64,000 bases of DNA from NCBI RefSeq assembly GCF_900116555.1, contig NZ_FPAT01000001.1, positions 310,001-374,000 of the forward strand. Direction: 5' to 3'. Shown here one piece after another: positions 22,771-28,615 of the stretch; the first letter of the stretch is position 1, and each line of letters begins with the position of its first letter. The DNA is from Actinopolyspora lacussalsi subsp. righensis (lineage in GTDB: Bacteria > Actinomycetota > Actinomycetes > Mycobacteriales > Pseudonocardiaceae). The position numbers and the translations under genes were made by a program. Under the pieces are notes generated by a model. It was not told the DNA's origin and did not search any database. It was given only the letters and a program-made list of their open reading frames with translations.

Positions 22771-22790
22771 GCACGACGGTGGTGGACGTG

Positions 22791-23150
22791 ATGGACGACG
22801 GTCGCCCGCTGTTCCTCCAGATAGCCGAGCAGATCGAGGGCTCGATCATCGACGGCTCACTGCCCGAGGAGACACGGGTTCCCTCCACCAACGAGCTCGC
22901 CGCGTTCCACCGGATCAACCCAGCGACCGCGGCGAACGGGATCAACCAGTTGGTCAGTGACGGGGTGCTCTACAAGCGAAGGGGGATCGGAATGTTCGTG
23001 GCCGGCGGGGCACGCGAGCAGTTGCTGGAACGACGCAGGCAGGACTTCGGGCGGAAGTTCATCGCACCGCTGCTCGGCGAGGCGCAGAAGCTGGGGATGG
23101 ACGCCGAGGATCTGAAGAAGATGATCGACGCCTGGAGGGAAGAGGCATGA
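22791..23150 (+). CDS. GntR family regulator, YtrA type
   Basis: A 119-residue short GntR protein. The winged-helix domain (LFLQIAEQIEGSIIDGSLPE, then VPSTNELAAFHRINPATAANGINQLV) is followed by only a brief helical dimerisation tail (RKFIAPLLGEAQKLG), which defines the YtrA subfamily. These repressors usually control adjacent ABC transporters and respond to cell-wall antibiotics or envelope stress. The ATG at 22791 was chosen; a GTG at 22779 in the same frame would add 4 residues and touches the second dyad. The stop overlaps the ATPase start (ATGA), so the three genes 22791-24744 form one coupled operon. Confidence 0.9.
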   Translation: MDDGRPLFLQIAEQIEGSIIDGSLPEETRVPSTNELAAFHRINPATAANGINQLVSDGVLYKRRGIGMFVAGGAREQLLERRRQDFGRKFIAPLLGEAQKLGMDAEDLKKMIDAWREEA

Positions 23151-24049
23151 CGGTAGCCGGCATGAGCGGGGCGAGCAAACGCTACGGTGACACCGTCGCG
23201 CTCGACGACGTGTCACTGGGATTCACCGAGAACCGGATTCACGGATTGCTCGGCCGCAACGGCGCGGGCAAAACGACAATCATGCAGATTCTCACCGGGC
23301 AGAATTTCGAGACCTCCGGAAATGTGGAGGTCTTCGGTGAACACCCCTACGAGAACGACAGAGTGCTGCGCGACGTCTGCTTCATCAAGGAATCGCAGAA
23401 GTATCCCGACATGTTCGCGGTCCACCACGCGCTGACCGCGGCGAGCCTGGTCTACGACAACTGGGACGCGGAACTCGCCGAGGAACTGGTCGAGGAGTTC
23501 GCGCTGCCGCTCAAACGACGCATCAGGAAACTCTCCCGCGGCCAGATGTCGACGGTGGGCATCATCATCGGACTGGCCTCACGTGCACCGCTGACCTTCT
23601 TCGACGAGCCGTACCTGGGGCTGGACGCGGTGGCGCGGCACCGGTTCTACGACCGCCTGCTCGCCGACTACGCCGAGCATCCGCGCACCATCGTGCTCTC
23701 CACGCACCTCATCGACGAGATCAGTGACCTGATAGAACACGTCACCCTCATGGACAAGGGCCGGGTACTGCTCGACGAGGACACGGACAAACTTCGTGCC
23801 AGCGCTGTCACGGTGACCGGACCGGCACGGGCAGTGGAGGAGTTCGCGGCGAACCACACCGAACTGCACCGGGAACAGCTCGGTGGTTTCCTGCGGGTCA
23901 CACTCAGCGGCGCACTCCCCGAGCGAATCCCGGAGGATCTGCACGTGGAGCCGGTCTCCCTGCAGCAACTCGTCGTACAGACCACCCGACAGGCGACCGG
24001 TGAGCAGACGTTCGTCGGTGCCGCGAACGACAAGGAAACCCGCTCATGA
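23147..24049 (+). CDS. ABC transporter ATP-binding protein of GntR-linked exporter
   Basis: A 300-residue ABC ATPase. Walker A is GRNGAGKTT, the signature is LSRGQMSTVGI, Walker B is LTFFDEPYLGLD and the switch region is VLSTHLIDEI. The signature LSRGQ deviates from the canonical LSGGQ and is seen in YtrB/BceA-like exporters. The C-terminal third (VTVTGPARAVEEF ... VEPVSLQQLVVQTTR) is an accessory domain. It overlaps the regulator and the permease gene (ATGA at 24046-24049). Together with the six-helix permease it forms a likely antibiotic- or lipid-handling exporter under control of the GntR protein. Confidence 0.9.
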   Translation: MTVAGMSGASKRYGDTVALDDVSLGFTENRIHGLLGRNGAGKTTIMQILTGQNFETSGNVEVFGEHPYENDRVLRDVCFIKESQKYPDMFAVHHALTAASLVYDNWDAELAEELVEEFALPLKRRIRKLSRGQMSTVGIIIGLASRAPLTFFDEPYLGLDAVARHRFYDRLLADYAEHPRTIVLSTHLIDEISDLIEHVTLMDKGRVLLDEDTDKLRASAVTVTGPARAVEEFAANHTELHREQLGGFLRVTLSGALPERIPEDLHVEPVSLQQLVVQTTRQATGEQTFVGAANDKETRS

Positions 24050-24744
24050 GACGCCTGCTCAACGTCAGCCGGATCCAACTGGTCAACGTTCCCGTCGTGT
24101 TCGGCCTGCCACTGCTGGTGCTCGGGTTGGCGTTCCTCGCCAATCTGGCGATCTTCGCGATGATCAGCGACTCGGCTCAGCAGGGCGAACCGGCCAGCGG
24201 GGCGATAATGTCGATCTATTTCGTCCTGCTGTCGGTGCACCTGCAGACCATGACCCAGTTCTTTCCGTTCGCCGCCGGTCTCAGCGTCACCCGCCGCACG
24301 TTCTTCGGTGCCACGACGCTGGTGGTGCTGGGACAGTCACTGCTCTACGGAATTCTGCTTACCCTGCTGAAGCTGGTCGAGTCCGGCACCGACGGTTGGG
24401 GAATGGGGCTGAGGTTCTTCGGGCTCCCCTTCCTCGTTCAGGACAATCCGCTGCTGCAGTTGTTGATCTACACCGCGCCGTTCCTGCTGCTGTCGTTCAT
24501 CGGCGTCTGGGTCGGCATCGTGTTCAAGCGGTGGGGCCAGCCGGGGGTCTACACGGTCGTGATCAGCGTCGGACTGCTGGCCGTGCTGTTCGCCTTCCTG
24601 GTTACCTGGCGGGAATGGTGGGCCTCGGTCGGAGCCTTCTTCGTCGAACAACCACCGCTGGCACTGCTGTTCGCCTACCCGCTGGGGCTGGCAGCGGTGT
24701 TCGCCGCTGCCGGATACCTGACGATCCGCCGCGCGATTCCGTAG
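24046..24744 (+). CDS. ABC transporter permease, GntR-linked
   Basis: A 232-residue membrane protein with about six hydrophobic helices and no recognisable soluble domain; typical opening NVPVVFGLPLLVLGLAFLAN and a late WASVGAFFVEQPPLALLFAYPLG. Its size and position directly after an ABC ATPase and a YtrA-type regulator indicate the membrane half of the exporter. Substrate specificity cannot be read. Third gene of the operon; a 157-bp gap with no obvious terminator separates it from the amidohydrolase. Confidence 0.85.
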   Translation: MRRLLNVSRIQLVNVPVVFGLPLLVLGLAFLANLAIFAMISDSAQQGEPASGAIMSIYFVLLSVHLQTMTQFFPFAAGLSVTRRTFFGATTLVVLGQSLLYGILLTLLKLVESGTDGWGMGLRFFGLPFLVQDNPLLQLLIYTAPFLLLSFIGVWVGIVFKRWGQPGVYTVVISVGLLAVLFAFLVTWREWWASVGAFFVEQPPLALLFAYPLGLAAVFAAAGYLTIRRAIP

Positions 24745-24901
24745 CGACCGCCGCGGCGGAGACGCACGGCGAAACCACCGGGGACACCCGGTCCCGACCG
24801 AACGAGCACGGAAAGACCGGGTGTCACTCGTCCGGAGTGCACGGCCGAACGGCTCGTGGCAGCTTGGCCGAAACCACACATCCGCCGAGGACGGTGACCG
24901 T

Positions 24902-26161
24902 ATGACAGCGCCGAACGGGATCAGCGCACGTTACGAGGGTGCGGTACTGATCGACGGCACCGGTGACGAGCCGGTCACCGACGCCGTGCTGCTCGTCGAC
25001 GAGCAGGGAGTGATCGGCTACGCCGGTGTGGCCGACACGGCCCCGCCACGGGACGCGACACCGGTGGTCGACCTGTCGGGACTCACGCTGCTGCCGGGGT
25101 TCTTCGACTGCCACGTGCACTTCGGGCTGGGCGGTGACATGATGTCGTCCCTGCGGGACATGGCGGTACCTCCGAGCCTGCGGAGTTTCGAGACCGCTCA
25201 CCGGATGCGGGAAACGCTGCACGCGGGGATAACCACCGCACGAGACCTCGGCGGTATCGACGCGGGATATCGACAGGCCCAGCAACGAGGGCTGCTCGAA
25301 GGACCACGGCTGCGTGTGGCGGGTCGTATGCTGGGCCCGACCGGTGGGCACTCCGATTTCACCCTCCCCGACGGCTCGTGCCCGGATCCGGGGCTGGGAA
25401 GTGTCGTGGACACACCGGAACAGGCCCGGCGGGAATCACGAACACTGCTCCGCGACGGGGTGGACTGGCTCAAGGTGTGCGCGACCGGCGGAATGACGAC
25501 CCCCTCGGACGACCCGGAGGACGTGGGACTGGACGAGGAAACCATCCGGATCGTGGTCGGCGAGGCCGCTGACCGCCGCCGGGACGGCGTGGCCGCGCAC
25601 TCGCAGGGAACCGTCGGGATCCACAACGCGCTGCGCGCGGGCGTGACCAGCCTCGAACACGGCTACGGGCTCGACCGGCAGGGCAACGAGCTGATGCTGC
25701 GCAACGGGACCGTGCTGGTGCCCACCCTGTCGGCGGCACTGCGGATGCCGGAACGCGGCACCGTGCCGGACTACCTGTGGCAGAAGAAGCACCGTTGGGC
25801 CGAGCACTGCAGGTCGAACATCGCCGGAGCCGTGGCGGCCGGTGTCCCGGTCGCGCTGGGAACCGATTCCGGGATCGGCCCGCACGCGAGCAACCTGGAC
25901 GAGTTGCGACTTCTCGTCGAGATCGGGCTGAGCCCGCTGGCGGCCATCACGGCCGGAACCGGGGAATCGGCACGACTACTGGGGTTGCGAGACCGGTTGG
26001 GAACGCTGTGTCCCGGTATGCTCGCGGACTTCGTGGTGACCGACGTCGACCCGCTGCGCGATATCGCGGGGCTGGCCGACCCCGCCGCCGTGGTCCTCGT
26101 CGCGCAGGCAGGCGAGATCCGCAAGAACACACTCAACAACAAGGCGGCTGCCACTTCGTAA
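24902..26161 (+). CDS. Metal-dependent amidohydrolase (imidazolonepropionase/prolidase-like)
   Basis: A 419-residue amidohydrolase-superfamily enzyme with a binuclear-metal TIM barrel. The HxH motif is in PGFFDCHVHFGL, the catalytic-site Lys is probably in DWLKVCATGG, further His ligands are in GVAAHSQG and SLEHGYGLD, and the final Asp in VALGTDSGIG. The small beta-sandwich caps the ends (YEGAVLIDGTGDEPV and DFVVTDVDPLRDI). Such enzymes hydrolyse C-N bonds in cyclic amides, dipeptides or mycotoxin-like substrates. The ATG at 24902 follows a GGACGGTGACC region. It is a separate unit from the upstream ABC operon. Confidence 0.87.
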   Translation: MTAPNGISARYEGAVLIDGTGDEPVTDAVLLVDEQGVIGYAGVADTAPPRDATPVVDLSGLTLLPGFFDCHVHFGLGGDMMSSLRDMAVPPSLRSFETAHRMRETLHAGITTARDLGGIDAGYRQAQQRGLLEGPRLRVAGRMLGPTGGHSDFTLPDGSCPDPGLGSVVDTPEQARRESRTLLRDGVDWLKVCATGGMTTPSDDPEDVGLDEETIRIVVGEAADRRRDGVAAHSQGTVGIHNALRAGVTSLEHGYGLDRQGNELMLRNGTVLVPTLSAALRMPERGTVPDYLWQKKHRWAEHCRSNIAGAVAAGVPVALGTDSGIGPHASNLDELRLLVEIGLSPLAAITAGTGESARLLGLRDRLGTLCPGMLADFVVTDVDPLRDIAGLADPAAVVLVAQAGEIRKNTLNNKAAATS

Positions 26162-26259: not shown

Positions 26260-26832
26260 GTGTGGCGAACGAGTTCTTCGGCGGAAAGGGCGGCCTGGCA
26301 CGAGCTGCGCGCCCGTTGTGACCGCCGGGTGGAAAGCCTGTTGCGCTCGGTCGAGCTGCCGGATCCGTGGAACATCGACGAGTTCATCGACGGGTTGGAG
26401 AGACATCGTGGCCGCGATGTCGACCTGTGCGCGGTGTCCTGGCACTTGGGCGACAGCACCGGTGCCTGGCAACGCAACGACGATCACGATGTCATCGCCT
26501 ACCCGGACAACACCAGCACGATGCACCAGGATTACATCATCCTGCACGAGATCGGGCACATGATCTCCGGCCACCACGGGCAATGTGTACTGTCCGTCCA
26601 GGAAGCACAGCGCAGGGCCCCGGATCTCTCCCCGACCGCCTTAGCCCACCTGCTGCACCGGGGCGACGTCACCACCGAGGAGCACGAGGCCGAAACCATA
26701 GCCACGTTGATCTTCGCCCGGATCACGCGTCGCACGGGGAGACGTCGTAGCCGCAGGAGGACAGGGGCAGCACCGGACGATCGGACAGCCGCTACGCTTA
26801 CCAGGTTGACCTCGGCGTTCGATCAACTCTGA
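26260..26832 (+). CDS. ImmA/IrrE-type zinc metallo-endopeptidase
   Basis: A 190-residue protein with the gluzincin HEXXH motif at residues 96-100 (DYIILHEIGHMISGHH) and a downstream Glu-rich helix (TTEEHEAETIATLIFARI) that supplies the third zinc ligand. This is the ImmA/IrrE (DUF955) family, whose founding members cleave phage-type or stress repressors; others act as toxins next to XRE antitoxins. No XRE partner is adjacent here. The GTG at 26260 is preceded by CGAGGA. The stop is 7 bp before the next gene's ATG, so the pair is one transcription unit with the large membrane protein. The C terminus is Arg-rich and disordered. Confidence 0.85.
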   Translation: MWRTSSSAERAAWHELRARCDRRVESLLRSVELPDPWNIDEFIDGLERHRGRDVDLCAVSWHLGDSTGAWQRNDDHDVIAYPDNTSTMHQDYIILHEIGHMISGHHGQCVLSVQEAQRRAPDLSPTALAHLLHRGDVTTEEHEAETIATLIFARITRRTGRRRSRRRTGAAPDDRTAATLTRLTSAFDQL

Positions 26833-26839
26833 CGGGAAC

Positions 26840-28615
26840 ATGTTGTCCAGCCTGCTGATGTACGGCGTCGGGACGACCGCGTTGCTGGCCGCGGCGTACC
26901 GGTTCCGGAACGCTCGCGGGGCGCGCACTCCCGGGGTGGTCCACCTGTGTGGCGCCATTGCCGGTGTGGGGTTGTCCGCCGTGCTCTCGGCACCGAGCAC
27001 ACTGGCAGTGGCGGCACCGATCGAGCCGATACCCAACGTCACACGGTTGTTGGCCAACGATCTCGCGATGGTGGCGGCGTGGTGCGTACAGGGACTGCTG
27101 CTGCATCTGGTGCTGCCGCCCGAACGTGCCTCCGCCGCACTCCGCCGTCAAACCGTGGTGCTGGTCATCGGTATCGGCACCATGAGCGCGCTGTTGACAG
27201 TGGATCCGGTCCCCTTCGATCCGGACTTCGTGGCCACCTATGCGGACGTTCCCGCGGTACTGGGCTACATCGTGGTTTTCTGCGGCTACATCGGTTGGAG
27301 TCAGCTGAATTTCATCCGGTTGATCCGCCGTTACATTCGGCTCAGCGACCGGCCGTGGCTGCGTGCCGGACTGACCGTGATCCAGCTCGGTTGTGCCAGC
27401 GCGTTGGGCTGGGCGCTCAGCAAGAGTGCGGCCTCGGTGTTGGTGTTCGCGCGCCACGGCGACTCGACAGGTATCGAGGCGAGCCTGTCCACGCTCTTTT
27501 CGGCGACGTGCGTGGGACTGGTCGCGTTCGGGGCCACCATGCCCGGCTGGGGACCGCTGCTCACTGGTTCGCTGTGCCGGATACGACAGCATCACACGCA
27601 CCGTGCGCTCGCACCGCTGTGGTCCGCGCTGCGTCCGGTGGTCGCCGAGGCGGATAGCTCGTCGAGCAGCTCTCCCGTCCCCGGGTCGCGAAGGATCGAG
27701 TGGCGCCTGACCCGACGGGTCGTCGACATTCGCGACGCGCTGTTGTTCCTCGCTCCGTACCGTCCGGCACAAAACGAGGTCACCGGAGATCTCCTAGCTC
27801 ACCCCGCGGACCCGGAAGCCTCAGCAGAAGCCGTCGGCATCGTCCGAGCCCTGCGCAAATGGCACTCCGGCGAATCCCCGATGGTCCGGGCGCCGCGAGT
27901 GCCGGAGCCGACGGAAATCGACGACCTCGACACCGAGATCGCCTGGTTGAAACGAGTGGCCCGTAGTCTTCCGACCGTGCACACGTCCGAACCGGAGGCC
28001 CCGGTGAAACCAGTCAGAGTCCAGTCGAGGACGGCCACGATCACCACGACATGCGCTCACCTGTTGACCGAGGTGCTCGCACCGTGGGTGCTGGTTCTAC
28101 TACTTCCGCTCATGGTTGCCTGGCGAGCCACCGACTCACTGACCGCCACGCTGCTGTGGGGGTTACTCGTGGCACTGACCAGCAGCCTCTTACCGATGGG
28201 GGTCATCGTCTGGGGCGCCCGGACCGGTCGCTGGGACGGTCACCACGTCCGGGACCGCGCTGGGAGGCTGATTCCCTTCCTGGTACTGCTCGGCTCCAGC
28301 GGGCTGGGGCTCGGGCTGCTGATCGTGTTGCGCAGTCCCTGGCTGCTCATCGCGCTCGACATCACGATGGTACTGACTCTACTGGTCACCGGAATGATCA
28401 CCATTCGATGGAAAATCTCCATGCACACCGCGGTGGCCGCCGGGGCGGTGGTCATCCTCGCCGTCACGCTCGGCCCCGGCTGGTGGGCCTCCGCCCCGCT
28501 GCTCGCCGCGATCGGATGGTCGCGGGTCGCCGTGAACGACCACACGACGGCCCAGGTCACGGCGGGAACGATCGCCGGTCTGCTGGCCGGTGGTGGCTAC
28601 GCGCTGCTCGTGTGA
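26840..28615 (+). CDS. Membrane protein: MAB_1171c-like N-terminal region fused to PAP2-like C-terminal domain
   Basis: A 591-residue polytopic protein. The first half has seven hydrophobic helices (residues 1-245) of the MAB_1171c putative-transporter/DUF6545 type and a linker ending RRVVDIRDALLFLAPYRP. From about residue 405 a second set of helices ends in a PAP2-like signature: RAGRLIPFLVLL, then MHTAVAAG in place of PSGH, then SRVAVNDHTTAQ, where the canonical SRX5HX3D has Gln instead of Asp. Substitution of the last Asp could mean a lost or altered lipid phosphatase. It is co-transcribed with the ImmA/IrrE protease, an association I recall for MAB_1171c-type proteins. Function unknown. 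Confidence 0.72.
   Translation: MLSSLLMYGVGTTALLAAAYRFRNARGARTPGVVHLCGAIAGVGLSAVLSAPSTLAVAAPIEPIPNVTRLLANDLAMVAAWCVQGLLLHLVLPPERASAALRRQTVVLVIGIGTMSALLTVDPVPFDPDFVATYADVPAVLGYIVVFCGYIGWSQLNFIRLIRRYIRLSDRPWLRAGLTVIQLGCASALGWALSKSAASVLVFARHGDSTGIEASLSTLFSATCVGLVAFGATMPGWGPLLTGSLCRIRQHHTHRALAPLWSALRPVVAEADSSSSSSPVPGSRRIEWRLTRRVVDIRDALLFLAPYRPAQNEVTGDLLAHPADPEASAEAVGIVRALRKWHSGESPMVRAPRVPEPTEIDDLDTEIAWLKRVARSLPTVHTSEPEAPVKPVRVQSRTATITTTCAHLLTEVLAPWVLVLLLPLMVAWRATDSLTATLLWGLLVALTSSLLPMGVIVWGARTGRWDGHHVRDRAGRLIPFLVLLGSSGLGLGLLIVLRSPWLLIALDITMVLTLLVTGMITIRWKISMHTAVAAGAVVILAVTLGPGWWASAPLLAAIGWSRVAVNDHTTAQVTAGTIAGLLAGGGYALLV

Follow-up and report, generated by a model that had tools for sequence, protein, structure and literature searches.

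The window analyzed here is a 64,000-nucleotide stretch of DNA from Actinopolyspora lacussalsi subsp. righensis, which belongs to a 4.9-Mb draft assembly of 22 contigs. Two adjacent genes in the window encode an M78 (ImmA/IrrE-type) metalloprotease and a membrane protein in which an MAB_1171c part is joined to a PAP2-like part. The stop codon of the M78 gene lies at 26830-26832, and the fusion gene begins with an ATG at 26840 and ends with a stop codon at 28613-28615; these coordinates confirmed the two open reading frames and the 7-bp intergenic gap described in the first-pass annotation. The features of the locus are as follows:

26260..26832, + strand: M78 (ImmA/IrrE-type) metalloprotease gene, 190 aa (PF06114; GTG start, start codon uncertain)
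26545..26559, + strand: HEIGH zinc-binding motif of the M78 protease (sequence)
26840..28615, + strand: MAB_1171c::PAP2 fusion gene, 591 aa (ORF, profiles, AlphaFold2)
26840..27574, + strand: 7TM receptor-like unit of the fusion, residues ~1-245
27584..27970, + strand: DUF6545 domain of the fusion, residues 249-377, presumed cytosolic (PF20182, 76.1 bits)
27971..28036, + strand: linker of the fusion, with pLDDT <50 at residues 383-398; located where unfused relatives have their gene boundary
28037..28612, + strand: PAP2-like membrane domain of the fusion, residues 400-591
28241..28276, + strand: degenerate C1-like motif HHVRDRAGRLIP in the PAP2 unit (assigned by eye)
28412..28426, + strand: C2-like motif KISMH in the PAP2 unit (subfamily alignment, hhalign)
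28520..28555, + strand: C3 motif SRVAVNDHTTAQ in the PAP2 unit (subfamily alignment)

The window M78 protein passed the PF06114 profile marginally (22.1 bits; curated cut-off, 22) and was 72% identical to its copy in Actinopolyspora xinjiangensis (genome G038). Its HEIGH motif was intact, as had been claimed, and HExxH was present in 49 of 49 seed M78 proteins (43 by script pattern and 6 by eye). Directly 5' of the M78 gene, positions 22779-26161 encode a GntR-like regulator (assigned by eye), an ABC ATPase, a membrane protein, and an amidohydrolase, the last of which (24902-26161, + strand) ends 98 bp before the M78 ORF. A conserved operon of this amidohydrolase with the M78-fusion pair was ruled out, since G038 has no amidohydrolase gene at that place. 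At another locus (L212), an amidohydrolase gene was found 3' of MAB.

Residues 13-376 of the fusion matched the NCBIfam MAB_1171c family (NF042915) at 202.5 bits (cut-off, 100), and residues 249-377 matched DUF6545 (PF20182); the fusion differs from this family by its attached PAP2 unit. Conserved residues W261, D299, E330, and E366 lie in the DUF6545 part. The AlphaFold2 model of the fusion (mean pLDDT, 87.6; pTM, 0.62) comprised a 7TM-like helix set, a helical DUF6545 part with pLDDT mostly >80, the low-confidence linker, and seven more helices. The predicted fold of residues 1-241 resembled a receptor/rhodopsin-like (GPCR-like) 7TM bundle, which is also compatible with transport, and a PDB sequence search with the MAB part gave weak matches only (E 0.07 and up), two of which were GPCR constructs. 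In the literature searched, we found no established function for the MAB_1171c/DUF6545 family, and its label of putative transporter is a name only. According to PMC8707978, a Mycobacterium abscessus MAB_1171c mutant had about half the biofilm mass, and the gene was called a transporter; this result does not decide between receptor and transporter. Both the family name and the mutant would agree with a transporter whose transported lipid is processed by PAP2, but the receptor-like bundle predicted for residues 1-241 counts against it, and we consider a transporter very unlikely.

The fusion is a single open frame that is kept in A. xinjiangensis with 77% identity. Between these two species, dN/dS was 0.25 for M78, 0.19 for the 7TM unit, 0.36 for DUF6545, and 0.17 for PAP2, indicating purifying selection on the pair. 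Fused MAB::PAP2 genes occurred in Actinopolyspora (two genomes) and in Gandjariella, where the start of the frame was unclear, the N-terminus of MAB was short, and no M78 was recognised. A sequencing or assembly artefact is unlikely, since A. xinjiangensis has the same fusion and Gandjariella another. MAB and PAP2 overlap by 4 bp at three loci (L216, L244, and L248), and a single stop codon separates the two frames at two others (L038 and L039), so that fusion would be a small step. In the PAP2 tree, the fused Actinopolyspora PAP2 grouped with the XRE-linked Actinopolyspora copies (support, 98.1/98); the deeper nodes (A. mortivallis, Gandjariella) were poorly supported, and the tree is therefore compatible with two separate fusions as well as with one fusion and a later split.

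The PAP2-like unit

Residues 526-585 of the fusion matched PAP2 (PF01569) at 20.6 bits, below the gathering score of 27.2; the PAP2 unit alone scored 18.8 and 18.0 bits, and the genome search gave 26.2 bits, all below this value. The standalone PAP2 paralogue of the same genome scored 28.5 bits, just above the cut-off, and gp101 of Streptomyces phage Gilgamesh also exceeded it with 28.5 bits. Accordingly, the window unit is treated as a divergent relative of a subfamily in which the other members exceed the cut-off, and not as a standard one. Re-examination of the Foldseek matches supported a PAP2 fold for the C-terminal unit. When the subfamily was compared by hhalign with three canonical PAP2 proteins encoded in this genome, the result was moderate (E 1.3e-4; probability, 54%), in which the C2-like Ser and His aligned with the canonical PSGH, and the best match of the PAP2 part in a PDB sequence search was G6PC1 (E 0.083). 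The PAP2 identity given to the C-terminal part in the first-pass annotation was thus supported by sequence, hhalign, and fold; the part did score against the PAP2 profile, although below its cut-off.

In the subfamily alignment, H78, H79, V80, R81, R83, R86, and P89 of the C1-like motif were invariant in 23 of 23 sequences. The motif reads HHVRDRxGRLxP and departs from the C1 consensus Kx6RP, with His at the Lys position. At C2, KxSxH stands in place of PSGH; the Ser and His are retained, the Pro and Gly are not, and K, S, and H were invariant (23/23). At C3, SRVAVNDHTTAQ follows the pattern SRx5Hx3D/Q, and S, R, H, and Q were likewise invariant in all 23. Human G6PC1 shows the same C3 pattern, SRIYLAAHFPHQ. 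PMC12264158 gives the Q form of C3 as a signature, places Gln at the last C3 position of active G6PC1, and reports that the K76R or K76N change abolishes G6PC1 activity. The first-pass annotation had noted Gln in place of the last catalytic Asp, hinting at a loss; as judged from the alignment, Gln is the normal residue of this PAP2 subfamily, with no loss in the fusion, and its use as the mark of a dead enzyme was ruled out. Among members of the PAP2 superfamily (PgpB, LpxE, and G6PC1), G6PC1 shares the C3 Gln with the window unit, which differs from them by its degenerate C1 and C2, its fusion to a 7TM unit, and its linkage to a regulator and a protease.

The degenerate C1, the KxSxH form of C2, and the recurrent coupling of PAP2 to a regulator, a protease, and a receptor-like protein would suit a catalytically dead sensor that binds polyprenyl or phospholipid phosphate and signals to the 7TM/DUF6545 part. 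Such a sensor deserves some weight, but we think it rather unlikely: two residues of C2 (Ser, His) and two of C3 (Arg, His) were invariant in 23 of 23 sequences, an active enzyme carries Gln at the last position, and PAP2 stood without the other cassette genes at 42 of the 65 loci of the family survey described below.

A recurring actinobacterial cassette

The window pair is a rearranged form of a four-gene cassette that recurs in actinobacteria, encoding an EspR-like XRE regulator, M78, MAB_1171c, and PAP2, which occurs in the family of the window, in five further families of the class, on plasmids, and in Streptomyces phage Gilgamesh. This four-gene cassette was not found in a literature search of open-access titles and abstract openings. 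M78 lay just 5' of MAB at 32 of 35 named MAB loci by tblastn, and additionally at L106 by HMM, which bears out the statement in the first-pass annotation that the two genes often neighbour each other; when checked in related genomes, the pair was found to be kept together. One XRE cluster was present in 50 of 61 MAB neighbourhoods, which are related loci and a non-random sample, and in 49 of them the gene shared the strand of the first cassette gene and lay directly 5' of it. A profile of ten cluster XREs matched the PDB chains of EspR, an XRE-type protein with solved structures, at 1.8e-34. Unlike EspR, the cassette XREs share an operon with M78, although none adjoins the M78 gene of the window.

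The family survey covered 150 genomes, and its top matches gave 65 PAP2 loci; this count omits two places in G079 and one in G021, matches weaker than approximately E 2e-42, as well as L113-L115, which were weak matches with nothing linked. XRE, M78, and MAB all lay within 3 kb of PAP2 at 14 loci, M78 and MAB at 2 (the two Actinopolyspora fusions), and XRE and MAB at 1 (the fused Gandjariella locus); XRE alone was present at 6, and MAB was linked at 17. The remaining 42 loci had no MAB, M78, or XRE match >40 bits within 3 kb, indicating that PAP2 is also used outside the cassette. Solo PAP2 genes at L126, L131, L137, L142, L143, L145, and L149 had another conserved setting, in which PAP2 comes after a gene resembling response regulators and one further conserved gene. 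Of the 246 genomes in the class survey, 37 gave a match, and 30 places were examined with 1.5-kb flanks; at 10 of the 29 besides that of our own genome, MAB was directly 5' of PAP2, in five families beyond that of the window. Longer stretches of nine of these ten loci contained XRE in eight cases. One of these (L248, genome G364) is a tandem double cassette, MAB-PAP2 followed by XRE-M78-MAB-PAP2. At Saccharopolyspora-type loci, PAP2 and the operon are arranged convergently. We judged a chance adjacency of PAP2 and MAB to be unlikely, by judgement rather than by a formal statistic.

Many MAB loci had no PAP2, and some carried another enzyme. The third gene, 3' of MAB, encoded PAP2, an MpaB/Lcp oxygenase, P450s, or FAD oxidoreductases, with an amidohydrolase and an amidase as single cases. 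One third-gene cluster covered 12 loci, mostly of Micromonospora and Salinispora, and its one tested member was an MpaB/Lcp oxygenase (loci L090-L092, L094, L095, L097-L099, L101, L102, and L104). P450s followed MAB at L068, L071, L105, and L107 by membership of a cluster of which a single member was tested, at another place in L067, and on plasmid pSGZL by annotation. L261 belongs with the P450 loci, and FAD oxidoreductases followed MAB at L108, L110, L226, and L236; the enzyme assignments are partly by cluster membership only. From this variety of genes, XRE-M78-MAB appears to be a core to which different enzymes can be added, PAP2 being one optional choice that others can replace.

In our own genome, no XRE gene lies directly 5' of the window M78, and no cluster XRE was found beside either M78-MAB pair (window and L005). 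The second pair (L005:7132-8882; G000:C13) has neither XRE nor PAP2 and lies 3' of a gene for a 929-aa protein; similar pairs occur in G117 (L048) and G134 (L051). The only EspR-like XRE found in the draft genome with E up to 0.01 (C12:84823-85254) lies 68 bp 5' of the standalone PAP2, on a different contig from the window. An XRE-PAP2 pair was also present in three other Actinopolyspora genomes (G038, G117, and G134), G072 had PAP2 without an adjoining XRE, and A. mortivallis (G097) had all four genes in one operon (L041). In G134 and G117, XRE-PAP2 persists, and no linked M78-MAB of the window kind was found. In G134, which is ~94% identical in the flanks, a deletion of ~1.66 kb removed M78 and most of MAB and left the PAP2 frame:

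L040:7881-8700: natural deletion in G134

L117 has only a short MAB-like tail before PAP2; judged from how large its genes are and how they are ordered, it seems to occupy the site that carries the full cassette in L120 and L128 and XRE-PAP2 in L130. Decay of the cassette in Actinopolyspora goes on, as in the G134 deletion, and in the simplest history the operon would have been duplicated and the two copies would then have lost complementary genes, which left XRE-PAP2 at one place and M78-MAB::PAP2 at the other. It might then be asked whether the M78-MAB pair is itself a decaying, non-functional leftover in its own genome, given that no cluster XRE was found beside M78 in the window, L037, L005, L048, or L051, and that the near relative G134 has lost M78 and most of MAB. 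The intact frames in two species with dN/dS of 0.17-0.36, the intact HEIGH motif, and the EspR-like XRE retained elsewhere in the genome make this very unlikely.

Copies in a phage and on plasmids

A tblastn search with the fusion matched 35 plasmid records and two phage records, both of a single phage, Gilgamesh, among 50,697 phage records. All four genes were recognised by HMM in 8 of the 10 plasmid or phage records that we read with a PAP2 relative: Amycolatopsis AA4 and pAmyja1; Streptomyces MBT27, NBC_01220, anulatus, zaomyceticus, and alboflavus; and phage Gilgamesh (gp98-101). On two Rhodococcus plasmids, XRE was 3' and on the opposite strand, and in one of these MAB was not recognised. 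A gene for a cis-prenyltransferase (prenyl diphosphate synthase) came next in 4 of the 10 records, one phage and three plasmids, followed by ParA; this neighbour was seen in none of the other loci examined. Gilgamesh gp102 matched PF01255 at E 8e-48; two of the four cis-prenyltransferases were tested with Pfam, and two were alike by tblastn and annotated uppS. The phage copy is arranged as follows:

L258:1533-5255: Gilgamesh gp98-gp102, XRE-M78-MAB-PAP2 followed by the cis-prenyltransferase, then ParA

Three circular plasmids of Streptomyces, 125-130 kb in size (L262, L263, and L265), repeat the Gilgamesh gene order. In a comparison bearing on whether CP108533, CP107934, and CP109288 might be phage-plasmids like Gilgamesh, a phage stretch of 7.5 kb gave matches over 26% for CP108533 and over 23% for CP107934, with further plasmids matching as well; the best 15 of 30 matches did not include CP109288. 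The prenyl diphosphate synthase gene beside PAP2 suggests polyprenyl phosphate metabolism as a common theme, and it is mainly from this neighbour that a polyprenyl substrate is proposed.

The first-pass annotation had also raised an anti-phage role. PADLOC gave weak matches of the cassette XRE to capH (0.00076) and RmrA (0.0016), of M78 to capP only (0.0076), and of the standalone PAP2 to KwaA only (0.042), and none of its models matched the fusion; PHROGs had no match for the fusion or P0006. Assignment to a known defence system was therefore rejected. The whole cassette in Gilgamesh and on plasmids, together with these matches, would also fit an element-borne immunity or lysogeny switch of ImmR-ImmA type adopted by chromosomes, with MAB and PAP2 as envelope-acting accessories for superinfection exclusion or anti-phage defence. 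We regard such a switch as unlikely: one phage only (two records) was matched among all phage records, and the fusion matched no PADLOC model, which is weak evidence either way, as defence genes were sought among the cassette proteins only.

Proposed receptor-gated proteolysis

ImmR-ImmA is another pair of an XRE regulator and an M78 protease. As in ImmR-ImmA, DdrO-IrrE/PprI, and CapH-CapP, an XRE-type regulator gene in window-type cassettes adjoins the gene of an HExxH M78 protease, and the cassette proteins weakly match the capP and capH profiles. The cassette operon differs from these systems in that it adds a 7TM DUF6545 protein and PAP2 or another enzyme, its XRE is EspR-like, no XRE adjoins the window M78, and cleavage of XRE is putative here. 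According to PMC10904395, the M78 protease cleaves the XRE regulator in DdrO-PprI and CapH-CapP, and both systems are switched by single-stranded DNA. In the cassette, M78 has as its conserved neighbour a membrane protein for which a cytosolic domain is presumed, which favours a membrane signal over single-stranded DNA.

We propose that the 7TM MAB_1171c part would act as a receptor in the membrane and that its DUF6545 domain would hold or gate M78. Upon a stimulus, M78 would cleave the EspR-like XRE regulator, by analogy with DdrO-PprI and CapH-CapP, and the cleavage would alter how the cassette and its partner enzyme are transcribed. In the cassette version with PAP2, this membrane enzyme would bind and probably hydrolyse a lipid phosphate, for which a polyprenyl (di)phosphate is the likeliest candidate, and might make or end the signal or be the regulated output; the fusion would place the lipid site beside the receptor. 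In our own genome, the XRE and one PAP2 would be supplied from C12 and M78 with MAB::PAP2 from the window, and with the operon divided over two loci, the regulator would need to work in trans. Several points count against this proposal: the 42 PAP2 loci outside the cassette, the MAB loci with another enzyme or no PAP2, the prenyl synthase neighbour in one phage and three plasmids only, the loss of M78 and most of MAB in G134, the unrecognised M78 and short MAB of Gandjariella, the XRE-PAP2 pairs of G134 and G117 and the G072 PAP2 described above, the window M78 that has no adjoining XRE, and the degenerate C1, with His at the Lys position (compare the K76 changes in G6PC1). Taken as a whole, cassette membership together with receptor-gated proteolysis and a PAP2 lipid-phosphate enzyme has, in our estimate, a probability of about one half.

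The first-pass annotation thus held as an observation and in part as an interpretation: the M78/MAB pairing and the PAP2 identity stood, the loss of a catalytic residue did not, and membrane-tethered protease signalling was a reasonable guess. The EspR-like XRE partner, the tandem operon that gave rise to the fusion, the split over two loci in this genome, and the plasmid and phage copies were additions to it. A wider scheme is speculative, and we doubt that all of it will hold. In it, the 7TM receptor-like protein would control destruction of the EspR-like regulator by M78, and a built-in PAP2 enzyme would read and reset the pool of polyprenyl-phosphate carriers, to which the phage adds a prenyl diphosphate synthase; chromosomes might sense the state of the envelope in this way, and phage and plasmids might tie lysis, lysogeny, or maintenance to the cell-wall lipid cycle of the host.

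The XRE/M78 regulatory pair was already known; new are the receptor-like and lipid-phosphatase partners, the fusion, and the phage copy with a prenyl synthase, which we think would surprise a specialist. In this cassette the protease gene goes together with a receptor-like protein of the membrane and, in one version that recurs, with a lipid phosphatase as well; in two genera the latter two are one fused protein. The proposed mechanism would give a concrete route by which a membrane lipid controls proteolysis of a transcription factor, as well as a candidate role for MAB_1171c/DUF6545, and Gilgamesh, a phage of Streptomyces lividans, would offer a tractable system.
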